A stretch of DNA of 42,369 nt, from positions 1 to 42,369 of the forward strand of contig JAIPBM010000033.1 in NCBI GenBank assembly GCA_021739695.1, read 5' to 3'. Both the position numbers and the translations under genes were made by a program. The DNA is from Flavobacteriales bacterium (GTDB taxonomy: Bacteria > Bacteroidota > Bacteroidia > UBA10329). This document shows positions 33,984 through 42,369 of the stretch, piece by piece. Within the stretch, counting starts at the first letter, position 1; each line of letters opens with the position of its first letter. The notes beneath the pieces were generated by a model. That model had not been told where the DNA came from. It saw only the letters and a program-made list of their open reading frames with translations, and ran no database searches.

Positions 33984-36062
33984 TCAATAAGCCAACAACT
34001 CCCCAAGCGCTTTTTGCACCTTCTCTTTAGAAGGAATCATGGTTTCTTCCAAGATGGAATTGAGCGGAATGGCTGGCATGTCTTCTGAGCCGATGACCTT
34101 AACAGGCGCATCGAGGTATTCGAAACAATGTTCAGAAATGCGCGCAGCAATGCTTTGAGCGAATGAGTTGGAAACAGGTTCTTCCGTCAACACAAGACAT
34201 CTTCCATGCTTCTTCACTGTGGCATAAATGAGTTCTGTATCCAATGGTTGAAGGGTTCGAAGATCAATGATCTCTACACGGCCTTTGAATTCCTTAGCCG
34301 CATTCCTACTCCAATAAACACCCCTTCCATAGGTGATAACGCAGCAGCTTTCAGATTTTTCAATCGATTCACTGTCAGCCTCTTGCACTACCCTACCTTT
34401 ACCAAAAGGTATAACGTAATCTTCGCTTGGCTCGATGGTGCGCGCTTCTTCTGTTCCTTTGATCTTGCTCCAATACAGACCTTTGTGTTCGAGCATCACC
34501 ACAGGATTCGGGTCGTAGTAAGCAGCTTTCATCAATCCTTTGAGATCGGCACCTGTGGATGGATACGCCACCTTGATGCCTTTGATGTTGCAGAGCACGC
34601 TCTCCACACTTGATGAGTGATAGGGTCCTCCGCTACCATACGCGCCAATTGGAACGCGGAGAATGCAGCTTACAGGCCATTTGCCATTGCTGAGATAACA
34701 CGAACGACTTACTTCCGTGAAAAGCTGATTCAATCCCGGCCAGATGTAATCCGCAAACTGTACTTCCACAATAGGTTTCAATCCAGCAGCACTCATACCC
34801 ACGGTGCTACCGATGATGAACGCTTCTTGAATAGGCGTATTGAATACGCGATGGTCTCCGAATTTCTCGGCAAGCGTAGCCGCTTCGCGGAACACTCCTC
34901 CAAGCCTTCTGCCTACATCCTGTCCGTAAAGCAAGCATTCTGGGTGCTTTTCCATCAACTCACGAATGGCGAAAAGGGCGCTATCCACCATTACGGTTGC
35001 TTCCTTGCCTGCTGGCGCACGTTCTCCTGTTTCTTCCGTGATGGGCGTTGGGGCATACACGTGGGTAAAAAGGTCTTCTGGACGCGGGTCTTCGAAGGTC
35101 AGTGCCTTATCGTATTCTGCTTGCACAAAAGCCGTAGTTTCTGATTCAATGGTCAAGAGTTCCGCTTCCGAAACTTCGGCATCCAACAATTGCTTTCTCA
35201 GAATCGGATATGGGTCGCGCTTGGCGTGTTCGGCCAGGTTCTCTTCCGAACGATAAAAATCCATGCGAACACCCGAAGTATGGTGGTTCAGCAAGGGCAC
35301 TTTTGCATGTACCATCATGGGTCTTCGCTCCCTTCGGATGGTCGCTATGGCCTTTTGAACCGTAGTGTATGATTCAATGAAGTTACTTCCGTTAATCGAT
35401 TGTACCTCAAGTCCTTTGAATCCTTGAGCATACTGGCTGGCATCCATGGCACGTATCTCGTCCGCACTGGCCGAAATATCCCATTCGTTGTCCTGAACCA
35501 AGTAAAGAATAGGCAATTGCTTGAGCACCGCCATTTGCAGCGCTTCCGACACTTCGCCTTCCGTAATGGCCGCATCGCCAATAGAGCAGACCACCACAGG
35601 CCTGTCCTCCATCTCCGCATCCAGCTTCATCAATTCGCGGTACTGCACGCCCATGGCGATACCCGTGGTAGGAATGGCCTGCATGCCTGTGGCCGAACTC
35701 TGATGCGGGATCTTCGGCATGTCATCCCGCTTCAAACTCGGGTGACTGTAATAGGTCCTTCCGCCTGAGAATGGATCATCGCGCTTGGCCAATAACTGCA
35801 ACATCAATTCGTGCGGCTGCATGCCAATGGACAGCAGGATGGAATCATCGCGGTAGTAGGGCGCCACAAAATCCTGTGGCTTCAACTGCATTCCTAGGGC
35901 GATCTGAATGGCTTCGTGACCGCGCGATGTGGCATGCACATACTTGCTTGTTACCCTCGCATTGGCCTCATAGAGTATGGTCATGGCCTTGGCCGTGCAC
36001 ATCAAGCGGTAGGCTTTCTTCAGCGTTTCTACAGATACGGATGCTTTCGATGTCTTTATCAT
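33984..36062 (-). CDS. 2-oxo acid dehydrogenase E1, alpha and beta subunits fused
   Basis: 692 residues from ATG 36062. The frame continues 48 codons upstream into low-complexity sequence that is not family-like. The N-terminal half is E1-alpha: TSKYVHATSRGHEAIQIALG, the thiamine-diphosphate motif GDAAITEGEVSEALQMAVL, and VQDNEWDISA. The C-terminal half (about 355-692) is E1-beta: LYGQDVGRRLGGVFREA, NTPIQEAFIIGSTVGMSAAG, QFADYIWPGLNQL, and LEHKGLYWSK. It catalyses oxidative decarboxylation of a 2-oxo acid, most likely branched-chain 2-oxoisovalerate type, passing acyl groups to an E2 not in the window. Fused E1 is common in Bacteroidota. Confidence 0.92.
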   Translation of the reverse strand: MIKTSKASVSVETLKKAYRLMCTAKAMTILYEANARVTSKYVHATSRGHEAIQIALGMQLKPQDFVAPYYRDDSILLSIGMQPHELMLQLLAKRDDPFSGGRTYYSHPSLKRDDMPKIPHQSSATGMQAIPTTGIAMGVQYRELMKLDAEMEDRPVVVCSIGDAAITEGEVSEALQMAVLKQLPILYLVQDNEWDISASADEIRAMDASQYAQGFKGLEVQSINGSNFIESYTTVQKAIATIRRERRPMMVHAKVPLLNHHTSGVRMDFYRSEENLAEHAKRDPYPILRKQLLDAEVSEAELLTIESETTAFVQAEYDKALTFEDPRPEDLFTHVYAPTPITEETGERAPAGKEATVMVDSALFAIRELMEKHPECLLYGQDVGRRLGGVFREAATLAEKFGDHRVFNTPIQEAFIIGSTVGMSAAGLKPIVEVQFADYIWPGLNQLFTEVSRSCYLSNGKWPVSCILRVPIGAYGSGGPYHSSSVESVLCNIKGIKVAYPSTGADLKGLMKAAYYDPNPVVMLEHKGLYWSKIKGTEEARTIEPSEDYVIPFGKGRVVQEADSESIEKSESCCVITYGRGVYWSRNAAKEFKGRVEIIDLRTLQPLDTELIYATVKKHGRCLVLTEEPVSNSFAQSIAARISEHCFEYLDAPVKVIGSEDMPAIPLNSILEETMIPSKEKVQKALGELLAY

Positions 36063-36429
36063 GAACCACAAAGTTGACAAAGTTGATGGAGTTGACAAAG
36101 TTAGATATGAGATGTGAGACGTGAGATGTGAGATTAGATTGTGGTGGATAGTGCAGAACGAATCGTTTCGTTCGCCTAAGGCGGATGAAGGATGCTGTGG
36201 AAACACGAATTCTTCAGGCTACATTCCAATATCTAAAATCTAATATCTCATAGCTCAAAGCACATATCTAATAGCCCTTCACAAATAGGGTGTTGAAAGT
36301 GGAATTATTGGCGTGATTTTGTTGGATAATTGAAAAATAACTTCCAACTTCATGTTGTTAATATCTCCCATCCGAAGGTCATGAACACGGATTAGGAGAC
36401 ATGCTACCAGCCCTAAACCATCTGCTACC
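36063..36429. other. Gene-free, low-complexity spacer
   Basis: 367 bp between divergent genes. It holds short reiterated words (GTTGACAAAGTT twice, GATGTGAG three times, ATCTAATATCTCATA-like phrases at 36232-36262) and no convincing gene, terminator or full promoter. It must contain the promoters of the E1 gene and the HTH gene, but I could not assign them. Confidence 0.5.
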
Positions 36430-36738
36430 ATGACCAAGCAACATTACATATTTCTCAAAAAGGAGTTCACGCTGCGCGAAATGCAGGTCATTTCGCTCAA
36501 TGCACTCGGACTTAAACAACGACAAATAGCCGCCTATCTAAACATTGCCGAGTCAACGGTGAAGACCCACCTCTGCACCATCCGCATCAAGCTGGGCTAC
36601 AAAAAGAACGAGGACGACAGCCGCAAACTGATGTCCGATTCGCTTGCCAATGGCTTTGACCGTGAAGGAAACTACACAGGACTGCATCTCTTCCCAGATC
36701 ATCCTGCCTCTGATATGCCTTGGGGCGCGGGGATTTAG
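36430..36738 (+). CDS. LuxR-type HTH DNA-binding protein, stand-alone
   Basis: 102 residues containing only a LuxR/FixJ-type helix-turn-helix: FTLREMQVISLNALGLKQRQIAAYLNI followed by the recognition helix AESTVKTHLCTIRIKLGY (about 12-56). There is no receiver, PAS or ligand-binding domain, so it would act as a solo regulator or work with a separate sensor. The C-terminus LHLFPDHPASDMPWGAGI is unlike the family. The stop codon lies at the first base pairs of a heptamer tandem repeat, so the end of the protein could vary with repeat changes nearby. Confidence 0.82.
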   Translation: MTKQHYIFLKKEFTLREMQVISLNALGLKQRQIAAYLNIAESTVKTHLCTIRIKLGYKKNEDDSRKLMSDSLANGFDREGNYTGLHLFPDHPASDMPWGAGI

Positions 36739-36815
36739 GTAATAGGTATCAGGTATTAGGTATTAGGTAATAGGTATTAGGTGTTAGGTGTTAGGTGTTA
36801 GATGTTGGGTATTAG
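36737..36815. repeat. Heptamer tandem repeat (AGGTATT-like), 11 copies
   Basis: Eleven 7-bp units read AGGTAAT, AGGTATC, AGGTATT (twice), AGGTAAT, AGGTATT, AGGTGTT (three times), AGATGTT, GGGTATT, then AG. It begins inside the stop codon of the LuxR-type gene. Slippage-prone. Confidence 0.85.
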
Positions 36816-36890
36816 CTCAAACGTACACTTCAGTCTCAACTCTCCCCTGGTTCAATAGATCAAAGCTTTCCCCTGATCCCTAAAATCGAA

Positions 36891-37146
36891 GAATCCTCCA
36901 CTGCGGTCGGAATGACAGTAGTAGTTGGCGTAGCTCACTGCTCGAACCTCTCTGCTCAAACCTCAAACCTCAGTCTCAACTCTCCTCCGCATCAATAGAT
37001 CAAAACGTACCTCTAATACGCTAACGAGCTAATTACCTGAGCCCTTAAGAAGATTCCTCCACTGCGGTCGGAATGACAGTAGTAGTTGGCGTAGCTCACT
37101 GCTCGAACCTCTCTGCTCAAACCTCAAACCTCAGTCTCAACTCTCC
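36891..37146. repeat. Two near-identical ~95-bp direct repeats
   Basis: 36891-36985 and 37052-37146 are nearly identical (first copy GAATCCTCC, second GATTCCTCC, then the same CACTGCGGTCGGAATGACAG ... CAGTCTCAACTCTCC). A third partial copy of the last part (CAGTCTCAACTCTCC ... CAATAGATCAAA) starts near 36831. No ORF is supported; it is a locally amplified intergenic block. Confidence 0.85.
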
Positions 37147-37211
37147 CCCTTTAGGCCTACGCCCAAAGGATTAGACCAAAGGGATTACACCTTTTAGCCT
37201 AGTCCTATCTT

Positions 37212-37246
37212 TTTGATTATCAATACATTAACTCTATATATGTTTG
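37212..37246 (+). promoter_or_regulatory. Promoter upstream of the 21-bp repeat tract
   Basis: TTTG (37212-37215), a 23-bp spacer and TATGTTTG (37239-37246). It would transcribe the 21-bp repeat tract as a ~430-nt leader of the gene at 37683. Confidence 0.5.
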
Positions 37247-37321
37247 TAATGCCGCTAGCAGCAAACGTTCTTTGACATCTGGAACAGTACCCTCATCAAA
37301 ACCGTATTCAGCGGAAGTCCG

Positions 37322-37615
37322 CGAACTTTAAAAGAAGACAGCGGAACACTAAAAGAAGACAGCGGAACTCTAAAGGAAGACAGCGGAACTCTAAAGGAAG
37401 ACAGCGGAACTCTAAAAGTAGAAAGCAGAACACTAAAAGAAGACAGCGGAACTCTAAAGGAAGACAGCGGAACTCTAAAAGTAGAAAGCAGAACTCTAAA
37501 AGAAGAAAGCAGAACTCTAAAAGAAGAAAGCAGAACTCTAAAAGAAGAAAGCAGAACTCTAAAAGAAGAAAGCAAAACACTAAAAGAAGAAAGCGGAACT
37601 TCCAAGGAATATGCA
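37322..37615. repeat. 21-bp tandem repeat, 13 units plus one degenerate
   Basis: Thirteen in-phase 21-bp units (consensus around AGAACTCTAAAAGAAGA) run from 37322 to 37594, with a degenerate fourteenth to 37615. Two sub-types alternate (GGAACTCTAAAGGAAGACAG and AGAACTCTAAAAGAAGAAAG, with GTAGAAAG variants). In the + frame that stays open they read G/R-T-L-K-E-D/E-S. The minus strand is also open (LLSSFRV) but hydrophobic and implausible as a protein. No normal start codon precedes the + frame. Confidence 0.9.
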
Positions 37616-37682
37616 ACAGATTTCCCAATTGCCCGCGTTTGGCGACCGCTAAACGCATCTAACCAATTAAAAAACAAACGTC

Positions 37683-38456
37683 ATGAAAAAGGATTATGTA
37701 CCCGGAAGTAATGGAGCATTCAGATCATGGGTCATCTCGCTCTACTCATTTGTAAGCAACAATGCTGTGGAATGGGACCTGCCCGTTTCAGTGGTACCAG
37801 AGTTTGATTCCATGCTCACAGAGTTCCTAGCGCTTTTTGCCACTGTAGAAAACAAGCGCACCCGCACCACCGAACAAGTACTTACCTACGAAAGCTATAA
37901 GGCTGAGTTCACCACCTTTCTGCGAAGCTTGGTGCAGGTGCATCTGGTGCGCAATTCACAGATTCCTTACGCCACCAAAATTGCCATGAACCTCAATCCA
38001 CGCGTTGGAAGTAGCGAACGGCCCGACATTGACAGTGAACCGATCATCGTGCTTACCAATGCGGCCAGAGGTGTTATCAAGATCAAATTACTGGTGCTCG
38101 ATATGGGCAAACGCCCTAAGATTCACCCAAATGCCAACGGTGCCGAGCTGCGCTTCTACATCAGTGCTGTGCCAACACAGGTGCAAGCGGCCAAACCAGA
38201 AGCATCTACCGATAGCCCGCAGGAACCAACACCGACACCAACACCCATTCCGATTCCTACACCTACGCCCAACACAGCGGCTAGCAACAAGGATGTGTTT
38301 GTGATGGATACCTTCTTCACCACGCGTGGTAGCTTCGACCGAAAAATGGAGAACTACCTAGGCAAAGCATTTGTGGTGCAAGGCCGATGGGTGAACACCA
38401 CTGATGCCGAAAAGAATGGCACCTGGTCTGATTTCTTCACCATTATTATTGCGTAG
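37683..38456 (+). CDS. Protein of unknown function with Pro/Thr linker
   Basis: 257 residues, no signal peptide. The N-terminal domain (1-165) begins MKKDYVPGSNGAFRSWVISLYSFV and contains FLRSLVQVHLVRN and LNPRVGSSERPDI, a pattern I have seen in hypothetical Bacteroidota proteins. A flexible linker EPTPTPTPIPIPTPTPNT (about 180-198) follows, then a short C-terminal domain (FFTTRGSFDRKMENYLG ... WSDFFTIIIA). I recognise no function. It lies after the 21-bp repeat tract and is closed by a strong terminator, so it forms its own unit. Confidence 0.8.
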   Translation: MKKDYVPGSNGAFRSWVISLYSFVSNNAVEWDLPVSVVPEFDSMLTEFLALFATVENKRTRTTEQVLTYESYKAEFTTFLRSLVQVHLVRNSQIPYATKIAMNLNPRVGSSERPDIDSEPIIVLTNAARGVIKIKLLVLDMGKRPKIHPNANGAELRFYISAVPTQVQAAKPEASTDSPQEPTPTPTPIPIPTPTPNTAASNKDVFVMDTFFTTRGSFDRKMENYLGKAFVVQGRWVNTTDAEKNGTWSDFFTIIIA

Positions 38457-38488
38457 CCAATGGCCTTCTTCGCAGGCAGCTACCTTCT

Positions 38489-38529
38489 GAACCCCGTTGG
38501 GCCTTGGCCTGGCGGGGTTCTTTTTTTTT
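38489..38529 (+). terminator. Rho-independent terminator
   Basis: Stem GAACCCCG (38489-38496) / CGGGGTTC (38513-38520), with inner pairing of the GGCC-rich loop, followed by nine T. It isolates the chromosome gene at 37683 from the cassette region. Confidence 0.9.
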
Positions 38530-38675
38530 GTAAATGTGGCATGCTAAGGGATGAAAAAACACAGGATTGAGGTGATAGAGTGTTGGAAGTTTGGATTGGG
38601 ATTTGTAGTATTGGCGGGTATAAACATCACAAGGCTAGAAGTAAGAATTACGCATAGCACGCCAAGTGCCAAACC

Positions 38676-38837
38676 AACTTAAAGACCACTGCCATATACG
38701 CACATGTCAGTACAAAAGACTTAAACAAAATAGTGAGCCCTTTAGACCGTATTTTTGATGATAGAGAGCTGAAAAACAATAAATTAGCAGCACCAACTCG
38801 AAAGGCGGCTATGAATGGTATAACTGATATCCCCTAG
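38676..38837 (+). pseudogene. C-terminal relic of a tyrosine recombinase (integrase)
   Basis: The frame ending at TAG 38835-38837 reads NLKTTAIYAHVSTKDLNK then IVSPLDRIF and a polar tail to ITDIP. KTTxIYxHVS with the nucleophilic Tyr and the SPLD end are the C-terminal signature of XerC/D and integron-integrase type recombinases. Upstream the frame hits a stop at 38655 and the expected LGH box is missing, so only about 50 codons remain and the gene is dead. It points the same way as the cassettes, and the last G of its stop codon is the G of the first GTT crossover-like site. Confidence 0.8.
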
Positions 38838-38904
38838 TTGGCGGTAATTGTTGAAGCCGTTTGAAAGTGCGGCTCTAAATTGAAAACTAAGCAGTTTCTA
38901 CGTT

Positions 38905-38983
38905 GAAACTTACGGACGACAAGCAAGTCAACACCACGAAGAAATTTAAGCCCTTACTTTATTGCAGCGAAACGTTGGTAGCA
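38905..38983 (+). repeat. Half attC-like relic inside cassette alpha
   Basis: CGGACGACAAGC ... TTTAAGCCCTTACTTTATTG ... GAAACGTTGG resembles the right half of the complete palindromes (GGACGACAGG ... TTAAAGCCCTATTTTCAT ... AAAACGTTGG), ending in GTT at 38974-38976. No matching left half was found, so it looks like the remnant of a lost or fused cassette. Confidence 0.55.
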
Positions 38984-39002
38984 ATTAAAAACAAAATCAC
39001 AC

Positions 39003-39857
39003 ATGAAAAAACAGTTTTATTTAATGCTTTCAATGCTTTTACTATCTGTAATTGCACTATCGCAAGAAGGAGTTATTCCAGTTGGAGTTACCAGCACATC
39101 AAATCCGCACTACCTAGAACCTCTGGAAAGTAATTACCTACCTGAATGTTACACGTCTTTAGCAAAGAAAGGGGCTTACTTAAGATTATCAAATCCTAAA
39201 ACTGGAATGACCGCATTGTTCATAGTAAGAGGCTCTATTCAATCAGGAACTTTTGGTAATGTAACCGTTACACTTGATTATTTCTCTTTATTAAAAGACG
39301 CTAACAATAGTACTTTCAATGAATACCTGTACTGTGGTGTAGTAAGTGAATCTGATGCTTTAACTGAAATAGCAACATTAAAAGAGAATGATGAAAAGAG
39401 TAAAATAAGGTCAGAAGAATTTGCAATTAGACTAGCTGAAAATAAGAGAGTCAGAGATAGTATATCTGATAGACTTGAAGCTAATGGAATGGAGACTTCG
39501 ATAACTTATTATGCTATCAATAATAATTTTGAAGGAGCGTTAGCTAATATTACTGCGGACACTTCCGATACTGGATATTCGCAATTTGGAGGTTTTAGCG
39601 CAGCTTCTTCGAATATACCAGTAGGGACTTTCCTTAGAGTCACGTATATGGAGGGCACTAGGTATGAGAAAGTAATATACGTTGAAGTCGTAAAAAAAAT
39701 ATCAATTCAACATAGTGACGTTGATTTAATTGTGTTTAAGGAAGCTTATAAGAGTTTAGGTATAAGTATTGCTAAAAAACAATGCTCTGTGATTTACGAG
39801 ATTATATCTAAAGAAGAGTATTTGACTCTATCAAACCAGGATAATATTAATAAGTAG
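39003..39857 (+). CDS. Cassette-borne secreted protein of unknown function
   Basis: 284 residues. The signal peptide is MKKQFYLMLSMLLLSVIALSQ. The mature part has an N-terminal beta-rich region (GVTSTSNPHYLEPLESNYLP, FIVRGSIQSGTFGNVTVTL), a charged helical stretch (IATLKENDEKSKIRSEEFAI ... RDSISDRL, about 120-160), and a C-terminal part ending SKEEYLTLSNQDNINK. I know no family. Its codons are noticeably more AT-rich than those of the chromosomal genes to the left, consistent with acquisition as part of cassette alpha. Start at 39003 is set by the signal peptide. Confidence 0.8.
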   Translation: MKKQFYLMLSMLLLSVIALSQEGVIPVGVTSTSNPHYLEPLESNYLPECYTSLAKKGAYLRLSNPKTGMTALFIVRGSIQSGTFGNVTVTLDYFSLLKDANNSTFNEYLYCGVVSESDALTEIATLKENDEKSKIRSEEFAIRLAENKRVRDSISDRLEANGMETSITYYAINNNFEGALANITADTSDTGYSQFGGFSAASSNIPVGTFLRVTYMEGTRYEKVIYVEVVKKISIQHSDVDLIVFKEAYKSLGISIAKKQCSVIYEIISKEEYLTLSNQDNINK

Positions 39858-39999
39858 TTGGTTTATGTTTTGAGTGTTTCATGACTCTGGTAATGCAGTA
39901 GATTTTAAATACTGTTCTTCCAAGTCAATCTCGACAAGTCTAAAAATGACCCTCAGTTTATTTTGATATATCAACGTTTGACAAAAAAATTAAAACAAC

Positions 40000-40135
40000 T
40001 ACCGCCAACATCTGCTATCAAAATAGGGCGTGACGACAGGTACGCAAGCCTTGGTGGTTCCTACCCAGTTCGGTTTCGGCTGAAAGGACGAAGCAGTTAA
40101 AGCCCTATTTTTCATAGCAGTAACCGTTGTGTGTA
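40000..40135 (+). other. attC-like recombination site A (closes cassette alpha)
   Basis: A ~135-bp imperfect palindrome. Left arm TGCTATCAAAATAGGGC pairs with right arm GCCCTATTTTTCATAGCA with one mismatch and a bulge. Outer ends are TACCGCCAAC (left) and GTTGTGTGTA (right). Only the AAC/GTT core of the classical integron consensus is kept. The crossover would fall between G40126 and T40127. Confidence 0.7.
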
Positions 40136-40766
40136 ATTTTAAATGAGGACAGCGCTGACAATTTTTCTGACACTCACTTGTCTGACGATATTTGCCCAGA
40201 CGGTTGTGACTGGAACGTTGGTTGACAGTAAGACATTGGAACCAATAAACTATGGAAATGTATTTATTCCAAAAACAGGCATTGGTTGTACGGTAAACAC
40301 AACCGGCAGTTTTTCACTTAATGTTGGTCAAAGCACGGTAATCGAAGTTGGGGCAATAGGTTATCCTAAGCATGTAATTTATAATCTAAAGCAGGATGTT
40401 GATACCATAAGCCTTGGTCAAATTCATTTGGTATATGTCGGTTCCAGCGGTTTTGTGACCGTTGCTAAAAAAAGGTTTCTATCAAAGAAGACAAGATTGG
40501 TTTGCGTTCCTTATGACAATACGAAAGAGATTAATTCTGAAGACTTTGTAATTAAATGTCCGAAAGGGGGTGTTTGCTATAAATGGGAGTATGACGAAGC
40601 GGCCTTTTTGATGTCGTTGAATTTTGAAATGATAAAAAACTACACACAACACCAACCATCAAAATAGGGCGTGACGTGTTTGCCGCAAGTTCATCACGGT
40701 TTGCAGTTTTCGCTTTCGGGCGAAAGGACGACAGGATTAAAGCCCTATTTTCATAGTTGTAAAACG
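40127..40766 (+). mobile_element. Integron-like cassette beta (640 bp)
   Basis: Starts at the GTT of site A: GTTGTGTGTA (40126-40135) is exactly complementary to TACACACAAC (40641-40650) at the left end of site B. One gene (40143-40667) fills it almost completely, the classic compact one-gene cassette form. Confidence 0.75.
40143..40667 (+). CDS. Cassette-borne secreted carboxypeptidase-regulatory-like domain protein
   Basis: 174 residues. Signal peptide MRTALTIFLTLTCLTIFAQ, then a CarboxypepD_reg-like (Ig-like) domain: VVTGTLVDSKTLEPINYGNV, FIPKTGIGCTVNTTGSFSL, VIEVGAIGYPKHVI. This domain is the plug-side module of many Bacteroidota outer-membrane proteins but here it stands alone with a short tail (LRLV-like basic segment, then KCPKGGVCYKWEYDEAAFLM). 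The gene begins 8 bp after the cassette start and its stop TAG lies in the left arm of site B, so the cassette is tightly packed. Bases 40598-40616 match 19 nt of a CRISPR spacer. Confidence 0.8.
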   Translation: MRTALTIFLTLTCLTIFAQTVVTGTLVDSKTLEPINYGNVFIPKTGIGCTVNTTGSFSLNVGQSTVIEVGAIGYPKHVIYNLKQDVDTISLGQIHLVYVGSSGFVTVAKKRFLSKKTRLVCVPYDNTKEINSEDFVIKCPKGGVCYKWEYDEAAFLMSLNFEMIKNYTQHQPSK

Positions 40767-40775
40767 TTGGCAAAC
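40641..40775 (+). other. attC-like recombination site B (closes cassette beta)
   Basis: Left end TACACACAAC, arm ATCAAAATAGGGCGTGACG, centre with GTTTGCCGCAAGTTCATCAC, right arm GCCCTATTTTCATAGTTG and right end GTTGGCAAAC (40766-40775). It is nearly identical to site C over about 120 bp, and less similar to site A in the centre. Confidence 0.72.
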
Positions 40776-40793
40776 ATTTTAAAAACCAAACAC

Positions 40794-41435
40794 ATGAAAC
40801 ACACAATCTTAACTACGCTTCTCACTGCCCTTATCATCACTGCATTTGGTCAATCATTTGAAGGGACAGTAACCTATGAAATGGAAATCAAGAACCCAAT
40901 GCCTGACAAGATTCCTGATAGTCTCTTTTTTGCAAGCATTGGAGGTGTTTCGAAGTTTACTCAGGTATACAACTACAAAGACAACCTCTATAAATCGGAA
41001 ATTAAAGAAACAGGGTTGGTTCAGTTATATGACCCAAAAACCAATCGTCTGTACAGTTACAATGCGGCAAAAGATTCCGCAGCTTGGTCAGACGGGTCAA
41101 AGTACATGGACGAGTTGGTTGAAGCCAGGAAACTCGATGAAAAAGAAACAATACTTGGCGTGGAATGCAATGCTATTGTGGTTAAATCGACACTTGCCGA
41201 GACTACCTACTACTATTCGGACAAGTACAAAATGGACCCGAAGTTGTTTAAGGGACATAAATACGGTTTGTGGGAAGATTATCTCAAAGAAACTGGAGCC
41301 TTACCTCTGAAGTTTGTTGTGAAGTCACCCTTCTCGAATATGGTAACCACTGCTGTGGACATCAAAGAAGAACAACTTTCAAACGACCTATTTAAACTGC
41401 CTAAGTTCAAATCAGTGGTTAAGAATCTGTTCTGA
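40794..41435 (+). CDS. Cassette-borne secreted DUF4412/GLPGLI-like protein
   Basis: 213 residues from ATG 40794; the open frame continues upstream through site B but the signal peptide MKHTILTTLLTALIITAFGQ fixes the start. The mature protein begins SFEGTVTYEMEIKNP, typical of DUF4412-like periplasmic proteins. It goes on with KSEIKETGLVQLYDPKTNRL, DEKETILGVECNAIVVKS and YYYSDKYKMDP. The family is known from Bacteroidota secreted proteins without biochemical role. First of two genes in cassette gamma. Confidence 0.82.
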   Translation: MKHTILTTLLTALIITAFGQSFEGTVTYEMEIKNPMPDKIPDSLFFASIGGVSKFTQVYNYKDNLYKSEIKETGLVQLYDPKTNRLYSYNAAKDSAAWSDGSKYMDELVEARKLDEKETILGVECNAIVVKSTLAETTYYYSDKYKMDPKLFKGHKYGLWEDYLKETGALPLKFVVKSPFSNMVTTAVDIKEEQLSNDLFKLPKFKSVVKNLF

Positions 41436-41498
41436 CTGCCAAACGCCTTTTATCCGCCTTACGCTCACAATGACAAATCCCCCGATACCTTAATCGGA

Positions 41499-42101
41499 AT
41501 GAAAACGATTGTAGTTGGTTTAGTTTCTTGCCTTGCTCTGCTCGTCAGTCCCAGTTTCAATGACGCTTCTACATTGGGTAACGTAGATTATCTACAAATT
41601 GGGAAACTGATGTACACTGAAGACGAAAAAGAAATAGAAGAATTATTTGAAAACTTCCGTTCCGATCAAAAACGCTTTCTGAGGCGGAACAAAAAGCTCC
41701 TTGAATACTATGGATTTAATGAGTTGAAAGATGAGTTCAATCTTCTTTTCCTCTATGGTGAATACAAAGAATTGCTTAAATCCATTGACTGGCGAGGAGA
41801 AGAAGGTGAAAAGGAGGTGGAGGACTTCATTGAAAAGCGTCTGCCACAAACGAAAATCGATTGGTCTATTACGAATGGATTACGAGAAGAATACAAGGAC
41901 TCAGTCCAACATGACGGAACTTTCATTATCAAACTGTTCAAAGCCGTAGACATGGATGTACGAAATTCAGGTCACGGATTACTTTTCTTTGACACAGGGT
42001 CGGATTTCTACGCGTTCATTGTTTTAAGCGCAGCAAATGCTGACAAAGTCAATTCCATTGCACCTCGACAATTCATGAAAGCGTCTGACCTGAAAGAATA
42101 A
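41499..42101 (+). CDS. Cassette-borne secreted protein of unknown function
   Basis: 200 residues. The N-terminus MKTIVVGLVSCLALLVSPSFN is a likely signal peptide. The rest is a charged, mainly helical domain (MYTEDEKEIEELFENFRSDQ, FLRRNKKLLEYYGFNELKDE) followed by a more beta-like part (GTFIIKLFKAVDMDV, GHGLLFFDTGSDFYAFIVLS). No family recognised. It lies 63 bp after the previous gene, whose spacer includes a small CCGAT/ATCGG hairpin just before the ATG. Confidence 0.78.
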   Translation: MKTIVVGLVSCLALLVSPSFNDASTLGNVDYLQIGKLMYTEDEKEIEELFENFRSDQKRFLRRNKKLLEYYGFNELKDEFNLLFLYGEYKELLKSIDWRGEEGEKEVEDFIEKRLPQTKIDWSITNGLREEYKDSVQHDGTFIIKLFKAVDMDVRNSGHGLLFFDTGSDFYAFIVLSAANADKVNSIAPRQFMKASDLKE

Positions 42102-42106
42102 AAAAC

Positions 42107-42241
42107 GTTTGCCAACACCAACTATCAAAATAGGGCGTGACGTGTTTGCCGCAAGTTCATCACGGTTTGCAGTTTTTAGTTTCGGGCGAAAGGTTGAAGG
42201 TATTAAAGCCCTATTTTCATAGTTGTAAAACGTTGGAGTAA
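42107..42241 (+). other. attC-like recombination site C (closes cassette gamma)
   Basis: Left end GTTTGCCAAC, arms CAACTATCAAAATAGGGC and GCCCTATTTTCATAGTTG (17 of 18 pair), right end GTTGGAGTAA with GTT at 42232-42234. Almost the same sequence as site B. Confidence 0.72.
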
Positions 42242-42369
42242 ATTGGTGGCGCGGTCTGAAAATGCGGCTGTAACGTGAAAGTTCGACAGCTTCTAAAATA
42301 AAGTATTGAATGAGTCCAATAACTTTTCCATTTCAAGGAATACCGACAATAATCAGTCTGGTAGCCGTT
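42233..42369 (+). mobile_element. Start of cassette delta (cut by window end)
   Basis: Begins with GTTGGAGTAA. The following leader (GTCTGAAAATGCGGCTGTAA ... GACAGCTTCTAAA) is similar to the cassette alpha leader (GTTTGAAAGTGCGGCTCTAA ... AAGCAGTTTCTAC). If the model holds, the cassette ends outside the window with TTACTCCAAC. Confidence 0.6.
42310..42369 (+). CDS. 5' end of a cassette-borne ORF (partial)
   Basis: ATG at 42310 opens MSPITFPFQGIPTIISLVAV and runs to the window edge. Only 20 codons are visible; the hydrophobic second half could be a signal or membrane segment. It is in the place expected for the cassette delta gene. Confidence 0.4.
   Translation, partial: MSPITFPFQGIPTIISLVAV

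Follow-up and report, generated by a model that had tools for sequence, protein, structure and literature searches.

The right-hand end of a 42,369-nucleotide contig from a Flavobacteriales bacterium (NCBI GenBank assembly GCA_021739695.1, contig JAIPBM010000033.1; hereafter C33, or the window, which is this one entire contig) consists of segments that each begin with GTT and are closed by a long palindrome, which raises the question of whether they are mobile gene cassettes and, if so, which recombinase moves them. Integrons are defined and searched for by the integrase IntI and its extra domain. The palindromes of the window serve as recombination sites in an integron-like system, widespread in Bacteroidota, in which exchangeable cassettes are stored, and the recombinase of these arrays is apparently other than the known integron integrase. 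Very probably, the window holds a gene-cassette array whose tyrosine recombinase, here termed HARP-Xer and carrying a HARP-like N-terminal domain, acts on folded single-stranded sites.

From position 38837 to the contig end, three complete cassettes are followed by the start of a fourth (Table 1), which is cut at 42369 because the window is a whole contig. In each complete cassette, the first ten bases are perfectly complementary to the left edge of its own closing palindrome, as the original prediction had stated, and this rule holds genome-wide, including at boundaries drawn by a covariance model alone. The palindromes do close the segments as described there, but their length, given as about 135 bp, is about 120 bp with the decamer extra. 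It had also been foreseen that cassette 4, which starts with GTTGGAGTAAATTGG, should end with TTACTCCAAC before another palindrome. Such an end was found on contig C23 of this draft genome (4.24 Mb in 53 contigs), the end of which reads CCAACTTACTCCAACACCAACTATGC, comprising the predicted decamer, the same mismatch at position 11 as in the other cassettes, further pairing and then the palindrome; the DNA between the ends of C33 and C23 is an unassembled stretch.

Of 2000 shuffles of the segment, 2 contained at least three GTT decamers whose complement lay downstream, and 69 start/end cassette calls in 243 kb of the genome (both strands counted) compare with a mean of 3 in shuffles. Since decamer counts filtered by the rule are circular, a recount was made with boundaries from the covariance model alone, in which 23 of 30 cassettes have perfect decamers, 6 have one mismatch and 1 fails. 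Swapping ends between cassettes left a perfect decamer in 3.9%, and the left edge of the palindrome matches the GTT start actually next in the array perfectly in 1 of 43 cases, so the pairing belongs to the cassette itself and would be complete only in a circle, as in integrons. The start/end pairs are private, with 19 different decamers among the 30 cassettes. An attC-like palindrome complementary to the cassette's own start, which is one of the criteria for an integron, is thus present. The core is GTTR in all 84 cassettes compared and GTTRRRY in only 6, bearing out the suspected departure from the RYYYAAC/GTTRRRY consensus. The covariance model places the palindrome at 47 sites in the source genome, many at or near contig ends; an Rfam scan of 36000-42369 gave zero matches. 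Separately, a second type of start/end pair (GTTATAAGCC, GTTATATGCC) lies near truncated recombinases of the same group at loci L035 (G000:C38) and L036 (G000:C19), perhaps representing a second, decayed array system.

The perfect ten-base match stands, but a simple ten-base rule does not: position 11 is unpaired in 83 of the 84 cassettes, mostly as an A on the start side facing a C on the palindrome side, and pairing is regained at positions 12-14 in 74-96% of them. This arm geometry is alike in three genome sets (the source genome, relatives and named genomes). The decamer match had been thought longer than usual, which is not clearly so, because several canonical cassettes analyzed here (about eight credible cases) also pair 8-10 bases; an exact length of ten bases as a peculiarity of the system was weakened by the same cassettes. 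Read on the bottom strand, a top-strand A.C mismatch becomes a T.G wobble. Inner stems contain 133 top-strand A.C mismatches versus 45 of G.T, and at 74 of 84 sites the bottom strand folds into the more stable stem, a count that gives no probability because sites in one genome are related and hence not independent. In classical integrons the bottom strand is recombined, and the stem bias fits bottom-strand recombination, if only suggestively. As RNAalifold found only 9 pairs in a mixed alignment, the covariance model was used for finding sites and not as evidence of structure.

There are also signs of movement. In the source genome, C45, on the recombinase/attI side, and C9, on the attC/palindrome side, each overlap C16 by 139 bp; the overlap starts exactly at the G of GTTGTGGTT and the preceding DNA differs, a fork that reads as one cassette in two contexts. 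Locus L088 holds a 945-bp cassette that is duplicated exactly in tandem. A cassette of the source genome, L024 (G000:C9), contains a type II DNA methyltransferase gene and has a relative (L143) in an array of Flavobacterium aciduliphilum, with 66% DNA identity over 367 bp.

The stub of a recombinase gene that precedes the window array (Table 1) includes the stop codon TAG, which overlaps the first GTT. An intact gene for a 426-aa tyrosine recombinase, with an open frame and the catalytic residues, is present on C45, where another array follows, its first GTT likewise overlapped by the stop TAG of the gene (CCCCTAGTTGTGG), and the junction CCCCTAGTTG is common to the window. Array starts of the source genome show a common inverted repeat and then ..TA/GTTG, further stubs of the gene end occur in sibling genomes, some directly before GTT, and in other families attI-like sites are located 36-158 bp downstream of the recombinase. 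Judged by position, the system therefore has an attI-like site adjacent to the recombinase gene, to which the first cassette is attached. The recombinase gene has the same orientation as the cassettes in all array-bearing relatives, i.e. the usual integron divergence is not seen, and the catalytic residues are invariant across 24 relatives. At the level of sequence, the cassettes are arranged one way and head to tail, each with GTT plus a private start and a self-complementary closing palindrome, and an attI-like start that coincides with the 3′ end of a recombinase gene of the same direction, or follows it closely, recurs across Bacteroidota.

Because the window array lies behind a detached stub, it is now either served in trans by the C45 copy or a fossil. 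The latter possibility, that the array once worked and that sites in the genus are now only repeats, with the window copy an integrase-less cluster, is unlikely, though it survives best among the alternatives; it bears on present activity and does not conflict with the identity of the element proposed here. The window has only the stub, and the gene is kept in one of eight sibling genomes even though most of them have palindromes, whereas the C45 copy combines an open frame and catalytic residues with a cassette shared with a second context.

Several comparisons set the array recombinase apart from IntI. The IntI model TIGR02249 gives 209 bits (cut-off 265) with a gap at positions 181-240, and the Xer equivalog families also remain under their cut-offs (XerA_Arch 209/220, XerC 175.6/335 and XerD 171.5/329.6 bits). 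The alignment to IntI4 (2A3V) skips residues 180-249, and the spacing between the GKG box (K-box) and HxLRHSFAT is 65 residues versus 106-110 in canonical IntI proteins from the same search. The insertion of approximately 42 residues that defines integron integrases, their IntI-specific additional domain, is absent. In a quick tree, canonical IntI proteins form one clade at 100 and most of the Bacteroidota enzymes form another at 98 (Shimodaira-Hasegawa-like approximate likelihood ratio test, SH-aLRT), with four HARP-type members (from Algibacter, Flavobacterium, Mesonia and a metagenome-assembled genome, MAG) placed elsewhere. By these comparisons, the array-associated enzyme is not IntI and falls outside the IntI clade, which the original prediction could not see; standard integron searches should therefore miss these arrays.

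Of 395 Bacteroidia genomes, at least 29 contain a strong relative of the recombinase and 1 contains a canonical IntI over the curated cut-off. Arrays were counted as palindrome-closed cassettes within 10 kb downstream of a recombinase. They are present at 14 of 20 Bacteroidota loci from the genome search (27 cassettes versus 0.4 in shuffles) and at 12 of 18 named Bacteroidota loci (37 cassettes versus 0), or 26 of 38 together. Similar Xer-like recombinases with the 65 spacing, nearly all from other lineages, had arrays downstream at 0 of 19 loci, and the other tyrosine recombinases of the source genome at 0 of 4. Array-bearing isolates include Winogradskyella ursingii, Algibacter onchidii, Seonamhaeicola aphaedonensis, Flavobacterium aciduliphilum, Rufibacter and Aquiflexum. 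A single-protein query found no match in named genomes or viral contigs, and relatives were retrieved by an alignment query. Recombinases linked to IS91 on plasmids resemble the C-terminal half of the enzyme, and related alphaproteobacterial recombinases had no arrays at the tested loci. HARP-Xer recombinases were also noticed in MAGs labelled Undinarchaeales, Firmicutes and Spirochaetota (L125, L140, L145), where the short stretches downstream showed no array; this occurrence could be real spread or mis-binning.

It is very unlikely that these are ordinary integron arrays, built by a canonical IntI whose gene the assembly lacks, with the tyrosine recombinase nearby only by chance. The genome is a draft, the palindromes resemble attC sites in layout and in start/end complementarity, and a few canonical arrays have similar extended pairing; nevertheless, no IntI over the cut-off exists in the source genome, just the single Bacteroidia genome mentioned above has one, and HARP-Xer is found at array starts in many families, while other Xer-like recombinases are not. 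Least credible of all are dispersed palindromic repeats (repetitive extragenic palindrome- or miniature inverted-repeat transposable element-like, or terminators) between genes without cassette recombination, a view that would account for many similar palindromes per genome 3′ of genes but is contradicted by the private pairing with its many decamers and leaves constant orientation, precise contig forks at GTT and recombinase linkage unexplained.

The N-terminal domain provides a further link between enzyme and arrays. Residues 1-86 are predicted with confidence to form five strands and three helices. Among 21 relatives, Pfam matches DUF5710 in 12 (best E 1.6e-6) and HARP in 4, and neither family matches the source genome's own copy. 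The top chain for the domain profile in PDB is a SMARCAL1-type HARP domain (4o66; E 0.09, not significant), and the fold search gave no PDB match under E 0.001. HARP has been described as a five-stranded sheet with two helices that is important for fork reversal (PMC4666394). The N-terminal profile matches array-bearing recombinases, including the outliers of the tree, and zero canonical IntI proteins; among non-IntI recombinases, arrays accompany 13 of the 19 that carry the domain and none of the 19 that lack it. The HARP-like domain would be a candidate for reading folded attC.

In the mechanism that we propose, the cassette circle would restore a full hairpin, with an outer stem of 15 bp that a wobble interrupts at one place, an asymmetric internal loop, an inner stem and a variable head of approximately 60 nt. 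The recombinase would act on the folded bottom strand, cut at the AAC/GTT core and insert the circle at an attI-like site or another palindrome. The catalytic part would be a XerA-type recombinase, and the HARP-like domain may recognize folded DNA, a task for which IntI uses its insertion.

Several points weigh against this interpretation. Recombination activity is deduced from sequence, much of the data comes from draft genomes, and assembly could have produced the C9/C16/C45 fork and the identical copy at L088. The resemblance to HARP is weak both by sequence (best Pfam E 6.5e-4) and by fold. No cassette was found downstream of 6 of 20 and 6 of 18 relatives, partly owing to short contigs or strict criteria. 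The strand counts share the non-independence noted above, and the strand difference at the window's own three sites is small. The eight sibling genomes mostly have the palindromes in common, and searches of them for two cassette genes, the 284-aa open reading frame (ORF) of cassette 1 and ORF 3b (DUF6630), found neither; as the siblings are distant and their flanking DNA is not conserved either, this absence is supporting rather than decisive. The proposal of an integron-like, divergent and poorly described system in Bacteroidota is supported by the pairing rule, the recombinase at array starts and the matching arrangement in other families, and the sibling differences agree with it. A broader claim is that a Xer-type recombinase, fused to a HARP-like domain that reads DNA structure, came to shuffle cassettes on folded single-stranded sites without the IntI insertion, giving a second, independently assembled kind of integron that is the main integron system of Bacteroidota; it is put forward tentatively, at somewhat less than even confidence.

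Compared with IntI integrons, the arrays share head-to-tail cassettes in one direction, attC-like imperfect palindromes, AAC/GTT cores, R''/R' self-complementarity within each cassette, an attI-like site beside the recombinase gene, asymmetric spacers, a bottom-strand bias of stem stability and mostly unknown small genes. In contrast to those integrons, the recombinase carries a HARP-like domain at its N-terminus, lacks the IntI-specific insertion (spacing 65 versus about 107) and does not fall within the IntI clade, the cores are only AAC/GTT, the outer arm is approximately 14 bp with a fixed mispair at position 11, and the recombinase gene points toward the array. Chromosomal integrons of Treponema, in which the integrase is transcribed toward attI in the cassette direction (PMC3607928), share this orientation but differ by a canonical intI. 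The closest solved sequences and folds for residues 123-400 are archaeal and bacterial XerA/XerC-like recombinases (PDB 4A8E, 5HXY), which resolve chromosome dimers at dif and have neither the N-terminal domain nor cassette arrays. Like the HARP domain of SMARCAL1 and phage UvsW-type helicases, the N-terminal domain has a predicted five-stranded sheet with helices and weak HARP and DUF5710 matches; HARP is fused there to helicase motors and here to a tyrosine recombinase, and the relation is tentative. The pdif/Xer modules were dropped as a candidate, the sites here being palindromes of approximately 120 bp versus 28-bp dif pairs.

In previous work, searching by IntI, one complete integron was reported in Bacteroidetes (PMC9024848), and activity was reported to require the extra domain of IntI (Messier and Roy 2001, cited in PMC9668308). 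According to PMC8138268, the CAT-domain insertion is not fully conserved in an integron-like subgroup, where such enzymes may earlier have been binned; the text consulted mentions no arrays. No earlier description of such a system was found in the open-access integron literature, subscription journals and preprints being outside the scope of the search. If HARP-Xer serves these arrays, cassette shuffling would be far commoner in Bacteroidota than thought, folded attC sites could be read by means other than the extra IntI domain, and a store of cassette genes, among them a methyltransferase of the restriction-modification type, would have been overlooked. The system also offers a clean comparison for the evolution of strand choice at attC.

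Table 1. Features of the cassette array at the right end of the window.
Feature	Position	Strand	Details
End of tyrosine recombinase (HARP-Xer) gene, detached copy, last ~160 bp; attI-like array start	38680..38839	+	94% identity over 169 bp to G000:C45
Cassette 1, 1289 bp	38837..40125	+	start GTTGGCGGTA at 38837; end TACCGCCAAC at 40000
Cassette 1 ORF, 284 aa	39003..39857	+	no Pfam match
AttC-like palindrome of cassette 1, decamer complementary to GTT core	40000..40128	+	without decamer 40007-40128; covariance model 115 bits; DNA fold
Cassette 2, 640 bp	40126..40765	+	start GTTGTGTGTA at 40126; end TACACACAAC at 40641
Cassette 2 ORF, 174 aa	40143..40667	+	weak CarboxypepD_reg-like domain (30.8 bits, cut-off 32.2)
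AttC-like palindrome of cassette 2	40641..40768	+	without decamer 40648-40768; covariance model 101.7 bits
Cassette 3, 1466 bp, two ORFs	40766..42231	+	start GTTGGCAAAC at 40766; end GTTTGCCAAC at 42107
Cassette 3 ORF 3a, 213 aa	40794..41435	+	DUF4412-like (under cut-off)
Cassette 3 ORF 3b, 200 aa	41499..42101	+	DUF6630 (60 bits, cut-off 27)
AttC-like palindrome of cassette 3	42107..42234	+	without decamer 42114-42234; covariance model 110.4 bits
Cassette 4, first 138 bp, ended by contig end	42232..42369	+	predicted 3′ end at end of contig C23

The ORF of cassette 2 extends at its 3′ end into the closing palindrome. The first part of cassette 1 (38837-38978) is a leader common to other cassette starts on C43 and C3; its end resembles the right half of a palindrome (AAACGTTGG at 38970), and it is possibly a decayed attC or a shared 5′ element. 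Just left of the array, at approximately 38577-38664, lies a repeat (TAAGAATTAC.CATAGCAC and surroundings) that is also found upstream of array starts on C3, C17 and C41 and could be an old attI region or a promoter. A 257-aa gene at 37683-38456 has relatives that adjoin other array starts, one directly before an attI-like site (G006:C151 4958-5656) and one near the C3 array (G000:C3 222526-223008), and is possibly a conserved neighbor of array starts. Farther left, twelve 21-bp tandem units (CGGAACTCTAAAGGAAGACAG-like) occupy 37281-37651, where the minus strand is open for 116-140 codons, and the intergenic DNA contains short GGTATTA-type repeats (36735-36818) and a 101-bp direct duplication (36888-37149).

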